From a virus, in the IMG/VR virus record IMGVR_UViG_3300017987_004248, positions 1 to 26,820 of that record: a stretch of 26,820 nucleotides of DNA; one strand, written 5' to 3'. Below, one piece after another: positions 959 through 21,750 of this stretch (its first letter is position 1; every line of letters starts with the position of its first letter). The position numbers and the translations under genes are program-made. The notes under the pieces were generated by a model. The model did no database searches. It had not been told where the DNA came from and was given only the letters and a program-made list of their open reading frames with translations.

Positions 959-2239
959 TTACAACTTACCTCTTTTGCATTCGAATTTTTTTCGGCCTAA
1001 CTTTGTCGGCAGGCCACAACAAAAGTCGGGGCATTTATAACCGCCGTTGCAGATTTTGCACGCCATTCTGCGTCTGATATATTCGTTTTGGTCAACCATT
1101 TCATCCAGACGATTTAATTTTTTCATCTTAGCTTTGGCGGTTTCGTAACCGAGTACAATCTGTTCGATAGTAAGAACCGGCTCTGTTTTTTTCATTGGCC
1201 TGAACTCTTCTGGCATAAAGTATTCTTTTATCAACCTACTAACCGACTTTTGGCTGAATAAGTTTATTAATTTTTTACGTGCTACTTTTGGACTTATAGA
1301 TTTTGGGGTATAAAGCCGGTAGGCAAGAGTTGATTTAAAAAAGTGCCTACAAGTTACGCTGGAATGAATATAGATTTTACCTGGGTGTTCTTTGTGCTGT
1401 AGTTGCGCCTTCATCGACCATTCCAAGCCTTCATTGCCGGACTTTCCAAGCGATAAATCAGCACCGCCTAAAGCGTCCCACCTTTTCTTGCTAATCATCC
1501 AAGCATCGCCATCGGCAAAACATAGACTTTGGGCGATAAGCGGCCTGTGTTTTTTTGGTAGAGCAGCACGGCGTTTGCAGGCGTTAAGTTTATTGTCGAG
1601 AACATAGAAAACAATCTCTTTGGCTTCGTCTGATTCTTTTTGAGAACGCAAAACAGCAGCGCCTATATTGACGGGATTCGCAATCGTTTTAAGTTTCAAG
1701 TCCCACGCTGAACTCATCCGGCAATGAGCAGGGCAAAAGAACAGAAATTTGCCTTCTGCAACAACAGCGGCTTTATTCAGACAGGCACGCCGCCCTATAG
1801 GTTCTTCGTTCTGTAAAACTTTAACTTTCGGGTTTTCAACCACTCCATAATTATAACCGTCAAGAACTACGATAATTTCAATCTCTCCGGAAGCGGTTGA
1901 AAGTAAGTTTTCTATCGTATTATTCAACTGCTTTTCTTCCGTAGCCGTTATAATTACGGTAGTCAAAACCCGCCGCACCGCTTTTTCGTTTGCAAGTAAA
2001 TTGCCCCTATAGATTTTAAGTTCATGCCTGTCACGAACATAGTTCCTCTTGTTCAATTCTTGTGGTTCTATCCGTTTCCTGCCAAGCCCCTTTTTGTTTA
2101 ATGTTTTGCCATCCCAATTTCCACGGCAGACGTGGATACACCATTGTCGGGGTACGTACAGAGGCTTACCGTGTTCCTCTGCCATCTTCTCACAAATACC
2201 GCCTCGAAATTTTCTACAATATTCATCCCACATTTTCAC
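959..2239 (-). CDS. Glycosyltransferase family 2/27-like protein with Cys-rich ends
   Basis: This 426-aa protein has a GT-A glycosyltransferase fold at about residues 88-300. TTVIITATEE opens the nucleotide-binding half, EIIVVLDGYN supplies the Asp of the first acidic position, and PIGRRACLNKAAVVAEGKF is typical of GT2 and polypeptide GalNAc-transferase-like enzymes. The metal-binding DxH triplet expected after FLFF reads C-P-A-H-C (169-173), so the Asp is Pro, while GNEGLEW (268-274) resembles the later GG-E-N-E motif. Four Cys lie in the first 40 residues and seven near the C-terminus (CKIC, KCPDFCC, ECK), suggesting metal-binding appendages. The start is GTG at 2239, overlapping the previous stop by 4 nt; an in-frame ATG at 2233 is the alternative. 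It is the last gene of the fibre module and may glycosylate a virion protein (inference). Confidence 0.72.
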   Translation of the reverse strand: MKMWDEYCRKFRGGICEKMAEEHGKPLYVPRQWCIHVCRGNWDGKTLNKKGLGRKRIEPQELNKRNYVRDRHELKIYRGNLLANEKAVRRVLTTVIITATEEKQLNNTIENLLSTASGEIEIIVVLDGYNYGVVENPKVKVLQNEEPIGRRACLNKAAVVAEGKFLFFCPAHCRMSSAWDLKLKTIANPVNIGAAVLRSQKESDEAKEIVFYVLDNKLNACKRRAALPKKHRPLIAQSLCFADGDAWMISKKRWDALGGADLSLGKSGNEGLEWSMKAQLQHKEHPGKIYIHSSVTCRHFFKSTLAYRLYTPKSISPKVARKKLINLFSQKSVSRLIKEYFMPEEFRPMKKTEPVLTIEQIVLGYETAKAKMKKLNRLDEMVDQNEYIRRRMACKICNGGYKCPDFCCGLPTKLGRKKFECKRGKL

Positions 2240-2628
2240 GGGAAATTAGTTCCGTCCGTATAAATAACAACATCAATATCGTCTGTGTCAAACTCCAATA
2301 AACATTCCATTCCTATATCACTTCCTGTATGCTGTTGTAGGTAACATTCGTAGCCAGTATAGTCGGGGTGACAATTTTCAATAAGATTGCTTGTTACATC
2401 TGCTATTTTATTGCTGTCCGAATCCTCAATATCGTCCCCACTCTTAGCATTGTCGATAAAGTCTTGACTGCAATTTATAACACGCATAACACCGGCAGCA
2501 GTTCCCGCACCCCAATTACCATAATCAAACGACCAAACTTCCGCAGTTTCGCTGGCCGCTCCTACGATATTTATAGTTTCACCAATTACCGGTTCGTGCT
2601 CACCATTTGCATACCAAAAACAAATCAT
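2236..2628 (-). CDS. Small acidic protein of unknown function
   Basis: This 130-aa protein is not recognised. It is acidic, with DGDD/DSDS-like stretches in the middle and a repeated Asp-rich end (EFDTDDIDVV), and has four Cys. A longer frame begins at 2649, but the start at 2628 is preferred: the preceding peptidase stop (TAG, 2639-2637) overlaps AGGAG, which sits 6 nt before this ATG. It overlaps the glycosyltransferase start by 4 nt, so peptidase, this gene and the glycosyltransferase form a translationally coupled trio. A virion-surface or fibre-tip role is possible from context only. Confidence 0.6.
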   Translation of the reverse strand: MICFWYANGEHEPVIGETINIVGAASETAEVWSFDYGNWGAGTAAGVMRVINCSQDFIDNAKSGDDIEDSDSNKIADVTSNLIENCHPDYTGYECYLQQHTGSDIGMECLLEFDTDDIDVVIYTDGTNFP

Positions 2629-2636
2629 TCTTTCTC

Positions 2637-4127
2637 CTATGTCCAACAACAGTCACATCCTATGTCAAACTCAGTTCGATGCGGAGCCAAGCCGAGACCG
2701 TCACTCCAATAGTAACCAGTCCAAAAACCGTTCCCATACGTGCAGTTATCACGCCATCGTTCCCACTCCCATCCCATCATGTAATAACAACCGTTATAAG
2801 TGTTGTCCCTTACGTAAATAAAATCTTTGCAAGCCAAAATAGCAGCTTCCTCGCATTCTCCATCTTCAAGCCAAGTGGCACACCTTGTGTCAAAAATCCA
2901 CTTCTTGAACTCGTTAACGTGGACGTGCAAAAACGGCGGGTCTTCGTCTAAGTCCCAATAGTCTGGTAATATACAACGACAGTCCGGCCATACCGGCTCT
3001 TGCACTACAGGCGGTCTCTGGCAGCACGTTTCACAGATATATAAAACACCGTCTATTATGCGGTGTAGTAAGTGTCCATAAGTCGGCCTGAATCCTATTG
3101 GTACGTCTGTTCCTATGCCGCTTCCGGACTCTGAACAAAAAGTAAAAGATAAAGCATCAACAACATCCCCTATATGGTTCGCAAGTGTAAATTGTCCGTC
3201 CCACGTCCCCGCAAATAACAAGCCCACAGCGTTCATATCCGAAGGGTCAAATATCACCGAGCCGGAATCACCGCCTGCCGAAAACCTACCATAATCCCAA
3301 TCGGTTTCGATAAGTAGCTGGTCGATAAACACGGCAGCGCCTACGCTATACTCCACTTCAACATCAAAATTAAAAGAGAGTACCCATCCCTGCGTATATT
3401 CCGTTGTTCTGCCTACCTTCGCAACCAATAGGGGCAGTTGGTCAAAAGTCCAGTCCCTCAAGTCTTTCGTGCCCTGAATCTCGTAATCATAATTCATAAT
3501 CGCAGTCGAACCGTCCGCCTGCGTATCTATATCGCATAGAGCCGCATCAACCAAATTGTCACCGCCCACAAAATCGATAAAAACATAACTATCTAAGTCG
3601 CCGATTTTATCGGCGACAGTTCCTCCGTCAGCAACTCCAGGCTGGTATATATCATCACCATTGTCCACGTTGTTGGAGTTGGCCAAAACGTGATTATTTG
3701 ACAGGATATATTTCGTACTGTCTTTGCATACTACCGAGCCGAGCGTACCCGCCGACATTGCGTAATGTCCTATCGAAACCCCTGCCAGTGCTGGTCTATA
3801 TTTATCGGCATAAGAAAACGCTTCCATCATCGGGCGTTCAGTAACAATAATCTCCAAAAAACCATCATCCTCTGGCCTCTCTCGTAATTTCAATCCCTCT
3901 AAGTGTCTGTGTGAATCCAGTTTCTTTGTTGACCACATAGCTATTGCAAACCGATGCCCTTTATCATAACCCTTGTCGCCTTCTTTCAAAAATATCAATC
4001 CGCAGCCGTGAACTTTTGATTGTTTTTTCTCGACACGAACAGATTTATTGATTTCGACACGAAGCCGTTGCCGGTATTTGTCGGCTATGCGTTTCGCCTT
4101 TTCGTAATTTTTACGGCCACCCTTCAT
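2637..4127 (-). CDS. Trypsin-fold (S1/PA clan) serine peptidase
   Basis: This 496-aa protein has a chymotrypsin-like catalytic triad readable in order: His146 in LSNNHVLA, Asp194 in LVDAALCDID, and Ser288 in GGDSGS. Around it are the usual strands (GTLGSVVCKD before the His; GLLFAGT after the Ser). The first 100 residues are basic then mixed and unknown. After about residue 335 comes a Cys- and Trp-rich tail of about 160 residues (CETCCQRPP, DCRC, CDCCW) that could bind metal or form disulfides. The frame extends upstream to 4205, but ATG 4127 is chosen because it sits in TAATG, sharing a base with the previous stop, with GAGGAGG just upstream. Placed among fibre genes, it may process a fibre or digest a host surface protein (inference). 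No signal peptide is visible. Confidence 0.85.
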   Translation of the reverse strand: MKGGRKNYEKAKRIADKYRQRLRVEINKSVRVEKKQSKVHGCGLIFLKEGDKGYDKGHRFAIAMWSTKKLDSHRHLEGLKLRERPEDDGFLEIIVTERPMMEAFSYADKYRPALAGVSIGHYAMSAGTLGSVVCKDSTKYILSNNHVLANSNNVDNGDDIYQPGVADGGTVADKIGDLDSYVFIDFVGGDNLVDAALCDIDTQADGSTAIMNYDYEIQGTKDLRDWTFDQLPLLVAKVGRTTEYTQGWVLSFNFDVEVEYSVGAAVFIDQLLIETDWDYGRFSAGGDSGSVIFDPSDMNAVGLLFAGTWDGQFTLANHIGDVVDALSFTFCSESGSGIGTDVPIGFRPTYGHLLHRIIDGVLYICETCCQRPPVVQEPVWPDCRCILPDYWDLDEDPPFLHVHVNEFKKWIFDTRCATWLEDGECEEAAILACKDFIYVRDNTYNGCYYMMGWEWERWRDNCTYGNGFWTGYYWSDGLGLAPHRTEFDIGCDCCWT

Positions 4128-4792
4128 TATGCCTCCTCTGTCCAAGTGCCGTACTTCGATATTGTCGCCCAGTCCCCGTTTGAGTCGGCTACCAACATTA
4201 AACATTCACCGATAGCGTTCGCTGTTTTATACTTGTTGGCGGTCTGGCCGCTGTCATCCCTGATTGTTGCAGAACCAGGGTCAACTCGTAATTCCTGCGC
4301 TGCCTGTACGGCAAAGGCAAACTTCGTCCCCGCCGGTGCTGAAGCTGGCAGGGTAAGCGTAATTGCTCCGCTTGCCCCCAAATTGGAATGCGCTGTTCCG
4401 GTTTCCGCTACTGTAAGCGTGTCGTTGGCGGTATGTTCTTCGATTTCCGACCATTCTTCACAATCCCTCGATACGTTAAACCAGTCGAGCGATTTCCATA
4501 CGCCATCGTCTTTTGTAACCCAGAACATCCATCCATCCTTCAATCGGGGGACAACTTCGTCAAGGTTGTAATCGCCGTGTATATTCGGATAAACATCAAC
4601 CTCTTCTCCGGCCGCGTCACGGTCAAGGTAGCAAACAATTTTTGTGTCCGATGGTGCATCGGTTTTACAAAACGCCTTACGGTACCCCTCATACCTGACA
4701 GCTTTGGTTATTTGTATGCTCTCTGGGGACTGCAACTGTTCATTTTTGGCCGCAATCCTGATTTGGTGTATTTTGTCATCCGTGACACTCAA
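4127..4792 (-). CDS. Fibre- or tail-associated beta-rich protein
   Basis: This 221-aa protein has two apparent halves. The N-terminal part (about 1-105) is not recognised. From about 120 onward it has the repetitive beta-strand texture common in phage fibre tips: TLTVAETGTAHSNLG, ITLTLPASAPAGTKFAFAV and ANAIGECLMLVADSNGDW. The start is TTG at 4792, supported by GGAGG 8-9 nt upstream overlapping the end of the LamG gene, with only 3 nt between the genes. It ends in TAATG, coupled to the peptidase gene. It is likely a structural partner of the neighbouring fibre-like proteins. Confidence 0.65.
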   Translation of the reverse strand: MSVTDDKIHQIRIAAKNEQLQSPESIQITKAVRYEGYRKAFCKTDAPSDTKIVCYLDRDAAGEEVDVYPNIHGDYNLDEVVPRLKDGWMFWVTKDDGVWKSLDWFNVSRDCEEWSEIEEHTANDTLTVAETGTAHSNLGASGAITLTLPASAPAGTKFAFAVQAAQELRVDPGSATIRDDSGQTANKYKTANAIGECLMLVADSNGDWATISKYGTWTEEA

Positions 4793-15631: not shown

Positions 15632-15677
15632 AGCCCGCTGACTGAGTTTGTGAAACTTGTCAGCGGGCTTTTTATTT
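15632..15677 (+). terminator. Intrinsic terminator
   Basis: AGCCCGCTGAC (15632-15642) pairs perfectly with GTCAGCGGGCT (15659-15669), with an inner AGTTT/AAACT extension (15645-15649/15653-15657), and is followed at once by TTTTTATTT. This is a textbook rho-independent terminator on the + strand. It would end transcripts of the holin-like pair before the gene at 15727, unless an antitermination or riboswitch-like control applies. Downstream genes then need their own promoter or readthrough. Confidence 0.88.
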
Positions 15678-15726: not shown

Positions 15727-15939
15727 ATGCAACGTCACAGGTTATTGTTGGAGCTTAAGAAAGATGACTATATTTCTTTCAAAGTCCAGGGTTCTGATAA
15801 ATCTATCGGTCAAGTCAGGTTAGATGAAAAAAGCCCTCTGGCGTATGCAAATCTTGTATTCGAGTTCGTTCCTAATATTGAAATTATTAGAGGTCGGGCC
15901 AAGAATAAGGCCCAAAATTGTAAACAGAAAGGAGTCTGA
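15727..15939 (+). CDS. Small protein of unknown function
   Basis: This 70-aa protein has alternating hydrophobic residues (DDYISFKVQG, LVFEFVPNIEIIRGR) suggesting a small beta-rich fold. A basic tail follows. It faintly recalls CsrA-type strand order but lacks CsrA residues, so I do not assign it. ATG 15727 follows GGAAAGGA. Its last codons carry AAAGGAG, the Shine-Dalgarno sequence of the next gene, so the two are coupled. Confidence 0.5.
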   Translation: MQRHRLLLELKKDDYISFKVQGSDKSIGQVRLDEKSPLAYANLVFEFVPNIEIIRGRAKNKAQNCKQKGV

Positions 15940-17386: not shown

Positions 17387-17986
17387 ATGGCAAAGCGAAC
17401 GCACTCATCGCTCGATAAATTGCCCGCCGAGTTGCGGGAGGCATTGACTTCCATGGTGGTCGACAACGCCTGGCCCGCCGACTTTCCTCGCCGCAAGGCT
17501 TTTGGTTTTAAGGCCGATGACAGTGAGCTTATAGGCAAACCGCGTTACGAAGACCTTGTCACTTACTGTGATCACAAAGGCTTCAAGGTTTCCAGGTCGG
17601 CGGTAGGGCGGTTCGGTATGCGAATGAGGATGCTTGCCAAGATGAAAAACGCTGGTGTGGTTGTTCGCGAGGTAATGTCCGACCTGAATGAAGATAAGGC
17701 ATCTGCTACACAAAAAGCCGTTGCTGAAATGATAACTGCCCAGACTATAGAGTTCATCGTTTCCCAGGACGATATGAGCTCTAATGAAATCAAGAACATA
17801 GCCAGGGCGATGAAGGACTGCACGCAGATTTCTATTGCTGCTGACCAGTACATCCGCACCCAAATCCAGGAGAAGGTCGAAAAGGCCTGTGAATCCACAA
17901 AGGCCAAGCTCACCAGGGCCGGTGTGGACAGTAAAAAAATCCAGGAAATCATAGATGAGCATTTAGGAGTGGTCAAAAAATCGTAA
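17387..17986 (+). CDS. Mu gp27-like small terminase subunit (DUF3486)
   Basis: In this 199-aa protein, the N-terminal pattern SSLDKLPAELREALTSMVVDNAW, then YEDLVTYCDHKGFKVSRSAVGRFGMRM (about 52-80), is the DUF3486 signature. In Mu, gp27 is the proposed small terminase subunit, recognising phage DNA for headful packaging. The C-terminal half is helical (VEKACESTKAKLTRAG). Its final codons hold AGGAG and an A6 run that bear on expression of the large subunit. ATG 17387 follows GGAGATATAACTG. Confidence 0.82.
   Translation: MAKRTHSSLDKLPAELREALTSMVVDNAWPADFPRRKAFGFKADDSELIGKPRYEDLVTYCDHKGFKVSRSAVGRFGMRMRMLAKMKNAGVVVREVMSDLNEDKASATQKAVAEMITAQTIEFIVSQDDMSSNEIKNIARAMKDCTQISIAADQYIRTQIQEKVEKACESTKAKLTRAGVDSKKIQEIIDEHLGVVKKS
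17965..17982 (+). promoter_or_regulatory. Start or recoding signal for the large terminase
   Basis: AGGAG (17965-17969), five bases, then A6 (17975-17980), read as AAA AAA in the gp27 frame, and TCG TAA. The large-terminase frame is -1 relative to gp27 and opens through this site. Either AGGAG serves as the Shine-Dalgarno sequence for an ATC start at 17980, or it acts like the upstream stimulator of a dnaX-type -1 frameshift on the A-run, giving a fused small-large terminase. Confidence 0.5.
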
Positions 17987-19365
17987 CCAAGACAGAAACA
18001 AAACCGCCGGCCCAAATCTCGCAGGGTTATTTTCTGCCCTATCAGAACGACTGGATACTCGATGACAACCGCTTTAAGCTCTGGGATAAGTCCCGTCGTA
18101 TCGGCGCCACTTACGCCGAGAGTTACAGGGCGGTCCGTCGCCGCAACCTGCTCGACCACAAGCGTGACTATTGGTTCTCCAGCGCCGATGAATCGGCGGC
18201 GGTTGAGTTTTCTCTTTACTGCCAGCAGTGGTGCAAGCTCATCGAGGCCGTGTCCGAGGCCTTTACCGAGGATCTCGAGGACGAAAAGGGCTACAGGTAT
18301 AATAATTACGTTGTCGAATTTCCCACCGGCAGCCGCATCAACTGTATGAGCAGTAACCCCCGCCGGTTCCGGTCTAAAGGCGGTGACATCTGTCTTGATG
18401 AATTCGACTGGCACGACAAGCCCGGCGAGATGCTCGATGCCTCCTCGCCGAGCACGATGTGGGGATATGATATCAGTATCCTTACCACGCGAAACGGCGA
18501 GGGCTCAGAATTCGATAATCTCGTAAAGACTGCCAGGAAAATCCAGGCCGGTCAGCTTGACCCGGACAAAGATTCCGTCCTTCCCTGGAGCTATCATTTT
18601 GTCCCGATTACCGTTGCCGTTGAGCAGGGCCTCGCCGAGAAGATTTACCGCCTCGATCGTATAGATGCTGCTGCCAGGGAGAAGTTAATTCGCGAATGCC
18701 GCGCCAAGAGCCGCAACGAGGACGCCTTTAACCAGGAGTATATGTGTATCCCCTCGGCGGCCGCCTCGACTCTCATTCCTTATGATTTATATCAAAGCTG
18801 CGAATTGGCCGACTGCATCCAGTCCCTCGTCCCCCACACAGAAGAACAGCGTCAGTACTTCCTCGGCGGCGATATCGGCCGCGAAAAACACCTTACCGTA
18901 TTCTGGCTCTGGGAGCTCGTGGGCGATTGTCTGATTTGCCGCAAAATTATCAAGCTTCACAAAACGCCTTACAGCGTCCAGCTGCAGACGGCAAGCGACC
19001 TGCTCGCTAACCGCAATATATTGAAAGGCTGCATCGACGCCACCGGCATCGGTGACATGCTTACTGAAACGCTCCAGGAAAGGTTCGGCAGCTATCGTAT
19101 CGAGAAAATCAAGTTCACCAACCCTGTAAAGGAGCATCTCGCCTCACAGGTCCTCGGCCGGATGGAGGATAAGCGTCTCCGCGTCCCTGCTGACATGGCT
19201 ATTCGTGAGAGTTTTCATTCCGTCAAAAAGACGGTAACGGCAGCCGGCAATATTCGTTTCGATGCCGCCAGCACCGAGGCCGGCCACGCAGATGAATTCT
19301 GGGGCGCTGCTCTGGGGATCGAGGCCGCCGCTTCCGAGTCAAAACCCGAGGTCATTTTACTTTAA
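17980..19365 (+). CDS. Terminase large subunit, Mu gp28-type
   Basis: From ATC 17980 the product is 461 aa. It has a packaging ATPase domain with adenine-motif-like LPYQNDWILDD, a Walker A-like KSRRIGATYAES (37-48), Walker B ICLDEFDW (137-144) and coupling motif SILTTRNGEG. The RNase H-like nuclease domain has Asp298 (LGGDIGREKH), Asp353 (CIDATGIGD) and Asp438 (HADEFWGAA). It pumps DNA into proheads and cuts it. The frame is open only from 17959, and no ATG, GTG or TTG occurs until GTG 18250, which would delete the Walker A. ATC 17980, 10 nt after AGGAG, or -1 frameshifting from the upstream gene, is therefore required; CTG 18034 is a third option. Confidence 0.85.
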   Translation: MVTKTETKPPAQISQGYFLPYQNDWILDDNRFKLWDKSRRIGATYAESYRAVRRRNLLDHKRDYWFSSADESAAVEFSLYCQQWCKLIEAVSEAFTEDLEDEKGYRYNNYVVEFPTGSRINCMSSNPRRFRSKGGDICLDEFDWHDKPGEMLDASSPSTMWGYDISILTTRNGEGSEFDNLVKTARKIQAGQLDPDKDSVLPWSYHFVPITVAVEQGLAEKIYRLDRIDAAAREKLIRECRAKSRNEDAFNQEYMCIPSAAASTLIPYDLYQSCELADCIQSLVPHTEEQRQYFLGGDIGREKHLTVFWLWELVGDCLICRKIIKLHKTPYSVQLQTASDLLANRNILKGCIDATGIGDMLTETLQERFGSYRIEKIKFTNPVKEHLASQVLGRMEDKRLRVPADMAIRESFHSVKKTVTAAGNIRFDAASTEAGHADEFWGAALGIEAAASESKPEVILL

Positions 19366-19374
19366 GGTCTGATT

Positions 19375-21750
19375 ATGGCAGAAGCTGTAAAATTAAGTCC
19401 CGAAGCCGCTGAGATGTTAAAGGCCGCCATTGATAAGCAGATCGAATCTGCCAAGAAGGGCATCAGTCTGGGCCAGCTTGCCCGTCTATGGGATACCGGC
19501 CAGTCTCTTGTCGATGGCTCTTCCAGTAAACCGAAATATCCGTACAAGCAGGTCGAGCTGGTCTTTGCCTGTATCAACAAGCTCATCAGCTCTGTTTCCG
19601 GCCTGCCGCCGGTAATCTCTAATATCAAGGAGCAGATTATCGAATCCGGGCCTGCCTATGATTTGTTATTTAAGAGTCCGTCTCTCAGTTGGGAGCGTTT
19701 TGTCACCGAGACGATTGGTCATTACGCACTCAGTCGGGACGTCTTCTGGGTCTTTACCGATATGGCCGGTCGTCAGCCCAAGGAGATTACCGTTATAAGC
19801 GGCACTCAGATGCACCCCGTCACTCACGACCGCACCGCTGGGGGAATACTTTTGGGTTGGGAGTTTCGCGGCACGGGCGGCCACCGCGCCACTTTCACGC
19901 TCGATGAAGTCTGGCAGTGGAAGAATTTCAATCCGTACGATCCTTATCACGGCATAGGCCCTGCCGCCGCTGCCAAACTGTCTATCAACTACAGCTACGC
20001 CGCCTCGTTATTTAATACCTCGGCCCTCGATAACGGCGCCGAGCCCGGAATCATATTAACAATGCCCGGCTCGCCTGGTGAAGAACAGATCCGTATGATG
20101 CGCAGCCAATTCGACTCCCGTTACGCTGGTGCCGGCAATGCCAAGAAAACAGCCCTTTTGGTCGGTGGAGTAGATGTTAAGACCGTGGCACAAACGATGG
20201 TCGATTTGGATGTGGCGACTCTTACAGACAAATCAGATAATAAAATCTGCGCCTGTTTCGAGGTTCCGCCTCCTGTTGTCGGCCTTGTCACTGAGGCCCA
20301 GTACTCTCACGGCCCTGCTCAGAAGGATTTTATCTTCAATACGATTATACCGCTGGCTCGTTTGTTCGCCGGTAACATTACCAGTGGTATCCTGTCTCGT
20401 TTTTATACCGATTCGGCTCGCGGTGTTGCCTTGAAAGATGCCCGCCTCTATCACGGACTGAAACACCTCTCGCTGGCGAGAAGGTCTTCATTCCGTGATG
20501 CATACCACAAGGCCGTCTCGCAGAACCGCTCTGTCTTTATATGGTTCGATACCGGCCAGCACCCTGTGGTCCAGGAATTTCAGCGTGAGACCGCCGAGAA
20601 GGTCCTTAATTTCACCAAGTCCGGTGTCGTCCTGAACAACCTTATAGAGGCCCACGATTTACCATACGAATTAAACGAATGGGGCAACCACTGGTGGATC
20701 GGTATAGGCCTGGTCCCAGCCGAGTATACGCTTGAGGCTGGTCTGGAGGGTCTGACCGGCCCGTCCCTACCGGAGGGCGAAGAGCCGAAGTCTTTACCCG
20801 GACCGGTTACCGAAACAGATCTTGATGTCCAGATCAAGGCCGACCAGCAGCAGGCACTTCGTATCTGGCGCAACTGGGTGACATCATGGGCGGGTATCGA
20901 GAAGGAATATTCCGAGGCGATGCGTAAATACTTCCTGCGACAGCAGAGGCTCTTACTGGCTCAATTAAAGAAAGCCCTTGCCAGCGAGACACGAGCCGCT
21001 GGTCACGAGTCACGGGCCGCCGGCGATATCATCGCCCGCATCGTTTTCGATTTGAAGCTCGAGAACAACAAAATCAAGGTAATCAACAACACCTTTTTCG
21101 GCAAGGCTGCCGAGTTGGGTATCCGCCAGTCACTGTCAGAGGCTGCCGGTCTTACCGGCGAGGCCCTTGACGAGGCTGCCGCTGCGGCCAAGTTGTCACC
21201 GAAGGTAAGGGGTAAAATGCTGATTTCGTCGAGTAAAATCACTGGCGTCAATAAAACTACGCAGCAGATGGTTACCGAGCAGTTAAGTTCCGGCCTCGAA
21301 TCCGGCGAGGGCCTGAGCGATCTTACCGGCCGCATCAAAAAAGTCCTTGGCTCCAACAGGGCAAGGGCCCTTTCAATCGCCCGCACCCAGACGGCGGGCG
21401 CTGTCGGCACCGGCCGCCACCAGGGCCTCTCCGCCGCCGGTATTGAGAAGAAGGGCTGGCTTACCAGCGCAGATAGTAACGTCCGTCCCTCCCACACCTC
21501 CGCCGGGCTCAAATACGCCGAAGGTATAGCCGTTGATGTCCCATTCGAGGTCGGCGGTGAGTATTTAATGTACCCGGGTGATCCTGCCGGCTCAGCCGGT
21601 AATATTATCAACTGCCGCTGCGCCGAGATCGCCATCGCCGCCGCCGGCAAAACTTTCGATCTTGCCCATTACAGCAATCTTAAATTTTATTCTTATAGCG
21701 ATATGCAAATCGACTTAACCAAAAACAAGGACCATAAAAATGGAAACTAA
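19375..21750 (+). CDS. Portal protein fused to a MuF-type head morphogenesis domain
   Basis: In this 791-aa protein, residues of about 50-440 match HK97-type portals: YPYKQVELVFACINKLISSVSGLP, then FNPYDPYHGIGPAAAAKLSINYSYAAS and FEVPPPVVGLV, with stem and clip regions. A long helical linker (about 480-640) leads to a MuF/SPP1-gp7 domain at about 655-760: RARALSIARTQTAG, WLTSADSNVRPSHTSAGL and a terminal NCRC (746-749). Portals are the dodecameric DNA gate, and MuF proteins enter the head at the portal vertex. In Mu these are two genes (gp29 and gp30). The join is in frame with no stop. The gene starts 9 nt past the terminase stop and overlaps the protease gene by 11 nt. Confidence 0.92.
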   Translation: MAEAVKLSPEAAEMLKAAIDKQIESAKKGISLGQLARLWDTGQSLVDGSSSKPKYPYKQVELVFACINKLISSVSGLPPVISNIKEQIIESGPAYDLLFKSPSLSWERFVTETIGHYALSRDVFWVFTDMAGRQPKEITVISGTQMHPVTHDRTAGGILLGWEFRGTGGHRATFTLDEVWQWKNFNPYDPYHGIGPAAAAKLSINYSYAASLFNTSALDNGAEPGIILTMPGSPGEEQIRMMRSQFDSRYAGAGNAKKTALLVGGVDVKTVAQTMVDLDVATLTDKSDNKICACFEVPPPVVGLVTEAQYSHGPAQKDFIFNTIIPLARLFAGNITSGILSRFYTDSARGVALKDARLYHGLKHLSLARRSSFRDAYHKAVSQNRSVFIWFDTGQHPVVQEFQRETAEKVLNFTKSGVVLNNLIEAHDLPYELNEWGNHWWIGIGLVPAEYTLEAGLEGLTGPSLPEGEEPKSLPGPVTETDLDVQIKADQQQALRIWRNWVTSWAGIEKEYSEAMRKYFLRQQRLLLAQLKKALASETRAAGHESRAAGDIIARIVFDLKLENNKIKVINNTFFGKAAELGIRQSLSEAAGLTGEALDEAAAAAKLSPKVRGKMLISSSKITGVNKTTQQMVTEQLSSGLESGEGLSDLTGRIKKVLGSNRARALSIARTQTAGAVGTGRHQGLSAAGIEKKGWLTSADSNVRPSHTSAGLKYAEGIAVDVPFEVGGEYLMYPGDPAGSAGNIINCRCAEIAIAAAGKTFDLAHYSNLKFYSYSDMQIDLTKNKDHKNGN

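Follow-up and report, generated by a model that had tools for sequence, protein, structure and literature searches.

The gene for the large terminase subunit (terL) of a Mu-like phage most probably begins at an AUC codon located within the end of the gene for the small subunit (terS), with initiation coupled to termination of terS; we would put the probability of this reading at about 85%. The evidence is wholly comparative: the feature described here is a conserved one, and it is from its conservation that we infer the start codon. The phage was judged to be Mu-like from the gene content of the stretch analysed, all 26 820 nucleotides of the IMG/VR virus record IMGVR_UViG_3300017987_004248 (hereafter the window): the minus strand encodes a transposase of the Mu type, a Gam-like protein and an AAA ATPase, and the plus strand a Gp27-like terS together with terL and the genes for portal, protease and capsid. 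The portal and a Mu F-like head-morphogenesis domain form a single 791-aa protein (19375-21750). On the minus strand, the genes of the tail end include one for a 522-aa protein (2637-4205) with a GGDSGS motif and a trypsin-like look, for which no Pfam match was found, and a family 2 glycosyltransferase gene, perhaps a cargo gene, is situated at the end of the late/tail region (959-2239). The assignment of terS to the Mu Gp27 family is based on a PF11985 score of 62 bits (cut-off 28), a match to phrog_426 and a position directly upstream of terL. TerL consists of an N-terminal ATPase domain and a C-terminal RNase H-like nuclease domain; it matches PF03237 and PF17289 above cut-off as well as the PHROG terminase large subunit, and its nuclease domain has relatives of known structure (5tge, 5m1q and 5m1f). 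The features of the terS-terL junction are listed in Table 1.

Table 1. Features of the terS-terL region of the window
Feature	Position	Strand	Evidence
terS, small terminase subunit (Mu Gp27 family), 199 aa	17387..17986	+	Pfam PF11985, E=9.8e-17; PHROG 426, E=3.2e-17; homologues
AGGAG, Shine-Dalgarno (SD) core inside terS	17965..17969	+	sequence; GGA/GGG codons in all aligned relatives
A6 run, its last A being the first base of ATC	17975..17980	+	sequence
ATC, putative TerL start codon, 4 nt before the terS stop	17980..17982	+	20 distinct junctions; pattern scan
ATCGTAA, 7-nt overlap between TerL start and terS end	17980..17986	+	invariant distance from ATC to terS stop
terL, large terminase subunit, 461 aa if counted from ATC	17980..19365	+	Pfam Terminase_6N, E=5.4e-10, and Terminase_6C, E=2.4e-9; PHROG 5909/2
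P-loop region KSRRIGAT (K37-T44)	18088..18111	+	invariant columns in TerL alignment
GTG, first canonical start codon in the TerL frame (codon 91 counted from ATC)	18250..18252	+	frame reading

The TerL frame opens at 17959, after a TGA at 17956-58, and closes at the TAA at 19363-65. A preliminary description had noted that it contains no ATG, GTG or TTG before the GTG at 18250 and that a start at this GTG would remove the P-loop region, and the sequence bears out both statements. Within the KSRRIGAT segment, residues K37, R39, R40, G42 and T44 are invariant among 17 TerL sequences, and the Pfam Terminase_6N match begins at residue 37; by its position and by analogy with lambda gpA, the segment would be the Walker A motif. 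Sequence conservation reaches codon 1 of the TerL frame, so that the GTG is not a credible start. When conservation was scanned from stop to stop in all frames of the window, many overlapping shadow frames were flagged, and among the real genes only terL stood out for its non-canonical start. A frame at 15646 was considered as a second gene of this kind and rejected, since it has a good ATG at 15727 with its own SD.

To collect relatives, genome bins and viral contigs were searched with TerL, which yielded a close clade (58-100% identity) besides numerous distant relatives (30-43%), and a terS search added loci; every distinct terS-terL junction found by either search was then tabulated. The viruses of the clade appear to be Mu-like and associated with Planctomycetota bacteria; phages and metagenome-assembled genomes (MAGs) are linked through binned contigs, which is no proof of host. 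Twenty distinct junctions, with TerL proteins about 58-100% identical to that of the window, form what we call the ATC class (the window, L024, L030, L036, L031, L061, L026, L034, L003, L037, L041, L122, L110, L111, L105, L107, L032, L109, L108 and L123); a separate IMG/VR contig, L038, encodes a TerL 100% identical to that of the window. In a phage reference collection, relatives above 37% identity were not found, from which it would follow that no cultured phage carries the ATC junction. One further locus, L039 (= L181), encodes TerS residues 1-164 followed in the same frame by TerL beginning near residue 108 (positions 1452-3053), so that both the junction and the ATPase N-terminus are missing; it is either a defective prophage or a chimeric assembly.

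In the window, the end of terS reads GTC AAA AAA TCG TAA, with AGGAG upstream and TerL in the -1 frame, exactly as previously described. The ATC proposed there as one of two possible origins of TerL, 10 nt after AGGAG, is found at the same place in all 20 junctions of the class: in the TerL frame, its first base always lies 4 nt ahead of the terS stop (position -7 from the end of terS). It is preceded by an SD core, GGAG or GGGG, at a distance of 7 nt in 18 of the 20; the window and L024 have one more Lys codon and hence a distance of 10 nt, the longer spacing in the window counting against this start. The codons at the SD are GGA or GGG in all aligned relatives. The near-cognate codon is conserved without a better start nearby across the 20 junctions: a canonical start within 7 nt is absent from 18 of them, and L030 and L036 have a GTG 9 nt after ATC. 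In 10 members, the window included, no canonical start precedes the conserved YF[LM]xxQ motif. Other members have TTG at codon 8 (several cases) or ATG at codon 16 (L061), and in certain members such downstream TTG, GTG or ATG codons could serve as the TerL start. That a sequencing or assembly error hides an ATG, as one might fear with a metagenomic contig and as the preliminary description had envisaged, has a negligible probability, because the identical TerL of L038 comes from a separate contig, the same ATC recurs in some 20 divergent contigs drawn from many metagenomes and genome bins, and no relative has ATG at that position.

The conservation of these letters might have another origin, namely that ATCGTA is maintained only as terS coding sequence (Lys-Ser-stop) or as a DNA or RNA motif, TerL being started at a downstream TTG or GTG. 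The TTG found at codon 8 in some members would fit, as would L025, which starts TerL at an in-frame ATG after the stop and still has the TCGTAA letters, indicating that the motif can partly persist as terS coding. But the codons are frozen at their wobble bases to an extent that makes this explanation very improbable. ATC takes its first letter from the wobble position of the penultimate terS codon, where all 20 junctions have an A, whether the codon is AAA for Lys, TCA for Ser or AGA for Arg, while AAA makes up 42% of the Lys codons in the same genes. Zero codon diversity is seen in just two of 85 conserved terS columns, this penultimate Lys column and an Ile column, against a median of 0.55, and the last residue of TerS varies (Ala, Thr, Pro, Lys, Arg, Ser) where the TerL start is canonical. 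The 10 members without a canonical start before the YF motif also speak against it. A pattern scan of all viral contigs, in which the third base of the start codon was left free, gave C at this base in 13 of 13 terS-terL matches, one of which, L244 (= L025), is the member that starts TerL at a different ATG; the 66 unrelated matches had A, G, T and C in 24, 20, 18 and 4 cases, respectively.

Clade members that do not have the in-frame ATC have a GTG or an ATG within 7 nt of that place. The GTG either overlaps the stop, as [AG]CGTGA (L028, L029, L106 and L117), or follows a TAG (L113), and ATG is used in L027, L114, L115, L002 and L025; in distant relatives, the overlaps are ATGA or TAATG, with the same -1 frame. 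In a rooted maximum-likelihood tree, both branches of the deepest splits in the clade contain the ATC state, at least six changes between ATC and canonical starts are needed, and sister loci may differ, as L105 (ATC) and L106 (GTG) do. There are four well-supported independent pairs with an ATC/canonical swap, and all three to four informative ones agree, in an underpowered sign test (p 0.125). The register of these canonical starts raises the question of the neighbouring codon, GTA at 17983, which is aligned with the GTG and ATG starts of relatives: TerL could start there, ATC being a mere neighbour. GTA is conserved in 19 of 20 junctions, in register with the ATGA and GTGA starts, and the GUA start of recJ is reportedly suppressed by a mutation of IF3. 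Yet the last two letters of GTA are dictated by the terS stop, the SD spacing and the IF3 pairing rules both favour AUC, and L122, a partly degraded copy, reads ATC TTA, which indicates that ATC rather than GTA is what is kept. Furthermore, a TGA stop for terS, which would turn GTA into GTG and thus create a GTG start one codon downstream of ATC, occurs in none of the 20 junctions, while TGA is the stop of TerL in 13 of 18 cases and of the long ORFs at these loci in 37 of 104; this count, like those given above for the wobble base and the pattern scan, comes from loci that share ancestry and are not phylogenetically independent. We regard a start at GTA as highly unlikely, mainly on account of L122. 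As to the other stops, TAG ends terS in 11 of the 20 junctions but only 9 of the 104 long ORFs, the same caveat of shared ancestry applying.

The second origin proposed for TerL in the preliminary description was a dnaX-like programmed -1 frameshift, with an SD about 10 nt upstream and slippage on the A6 run, which would generate a TerS-TerL fusion of about 660 aa. The window and L024 resemble the dnaX cassette in that an A-run close to a stop is preceded, at 10 nt, by an SD-like AGGAG, and in both the second AAA could re-pair perfectly one base back. A -1 slip requires such re-pairing of the codon, and in 13 of the 20 junctions, where an A precedes AAA, it would be possible on A-AAA. The remaining seven keep ATC and cannot re-pair, the sequences being GTG AAA (L026 and L031), ACT AAA (L061), ACG AAA (L111 and L122), GCC TCA (L105) and ACA AGA (L109). 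It had been suggested that relatives be aligned to see whether the -1 frame, AGGAG and A6 are conserved: the frame and the SD are, but the A6 run is found, apart from the window, only in L038, which is nearly identical to it, and in L024, the member of the ATC class closest to it. Moreover, in L061 a TAA in the TerL frame directly precedes ATC. No conserved downstream hairpin was detected (RNAalifold, -3.2 kcal/mol, no helix of note), and in folds of the individual sequences the downstream minimum free energies were no more stable than those of shuffled sequence; the weak pairing of TTAGGA with TCGTAA in the consensus fold follows from terS coding constraints. A full-length natural TerS-TerL fusion is absent among the relatives, and those with GTG or ATG starts make separate proteins. 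Unlike dnaX, the junction thus has no conserved slip heptamer, stimulatory hairpin or conserved A6, and the odds that TerL is made by programmed frameshifting are, in our view, very slim. Incidental slippage may occur in the window itself, but not as a conserved mechanism.

Initiation of TerL at AUC could proceed as follows. Ribosomes finishing terS at the UAA (17984-17986) would stand over the AUC, and the SD core within the end of terS would hold the 30S subunit; fMet-tRNA would form A-U and U-A pairs with the first two bases of AUC and face a C.C mismatch at the third, and the TerL protein should therefore begin with Met. Initiation would be mostly re-initiation by the ribosomes terminating on terS, or would be achieved by 30S subunits bound at the internal SD. 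In E. coli, an SD promotes re-initiation and overexpression of IF3 lowers it, and IF3 demands Watson-Crick pairing at the first and second positions of the start codon while tolerating the third. A special initiator tRNA reading AUC was looked for and not seen: no tRNA genes were found in the window or in 19 related loci, and the one initiator tRNA motif in MAG G001 has a normal CAU anticodon, the incomplete MAG G002 giving no match.

Why such a weak codon should be kept is a matter on which we can only be tentative. A codon discriminated against by IF3 would keep the amount of packaging motor far lower than that of TerS. A single synonymous exchange of the terS stop, TAA for TGA, would be enough to give a GTG; as this change was never taken in the ATC class, AUC may well be kept for low dosage; by analogy with known systems, it probably limits the dosage of TerL through IF3 discrimination, and a role in dosage or in IF3-responsive control is plausible. 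The MAGs may offer a parallel. In three Planctomycetota MAGs linked to the phages, infC has no ATG, GTG or TTG start, and its only plausible starts are ATC in L184 (G001) and L186 (G450) and ATA in L185 (G002), 7 nt after AAGGTG. These codons and their 7-nt spacing suggest that near-cognate initiation is native to the MAG lineage. One could go further and suppose, as a speculation that we hold to be rather less likely than otherwise, that AUC is a control selected throughout the phage lineage, by which TerL synthesis depends on terS termination and on the level or activity of host IF3, the same signal that sets expression of the ATC- or ATA-started infC of the host, and which either keeps TerL scarce relative to TerS or times it to a change in the state of initiation factors late in infection.

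Several known systems resemble parts of this arrangement. The infC gene, which encodes IF3, is known for AUU, AUC or AUA starts with autoregulation; like terL it combines an AT-N near-cognate start with an SD at 7 nt, but it is a cellular gene, the first of its group, whose start serves IF3 autoregulation without coupling to an upstream stop. In phage Mu (gp27/gp28) and Pseudomonas phage B3, the gene order, the -1 frame and the overlap of start and stop are alike, the B3 annotations of terS and terL overlapping by one base; the starts of this type are canonical ATG or GTG, whereas the ATC of the clade is one codon further upstream. The precedent for a start codon that restrains one gene of an overlapping pair is found in Streptomyces sigR, with a conserved GTC start repressed by IF3 (PMC5472188). 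As in terL, the near-cognate start of sigR is conserved, has a strong SD, was missed by annotation and belongs to an overlapping pair in which stoichiometry matters; it differs in that the codon is GTC, that the odd codon is on the upstream gene (sigR-rsrA), that it is experimentally proven and that the product is a bacterial regulator.

ATC is listed among the alternative start codons of phages in an annotation guide, so that the codon itself is already known in phages, but its fixation in a terminase lineage appears to be undescribed: our literature search found no paper on a conserved start other than ATG, GTG or TTG in a phage packaging gene. To our knowledge, conserved starts of this kind are documented for very few bacterial genes. 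If TerL does start at AUC, gene callers would systematically truncate terL in this clade, with loss of the ATPase P-loop, and both viral annotation and marker trees would be distorted. The natural ATC/GTG sister pairs, such as L105 and L106, would then make it easy to test if the stoichiometry of the terminase is set by weak initiation coupled to a stop.
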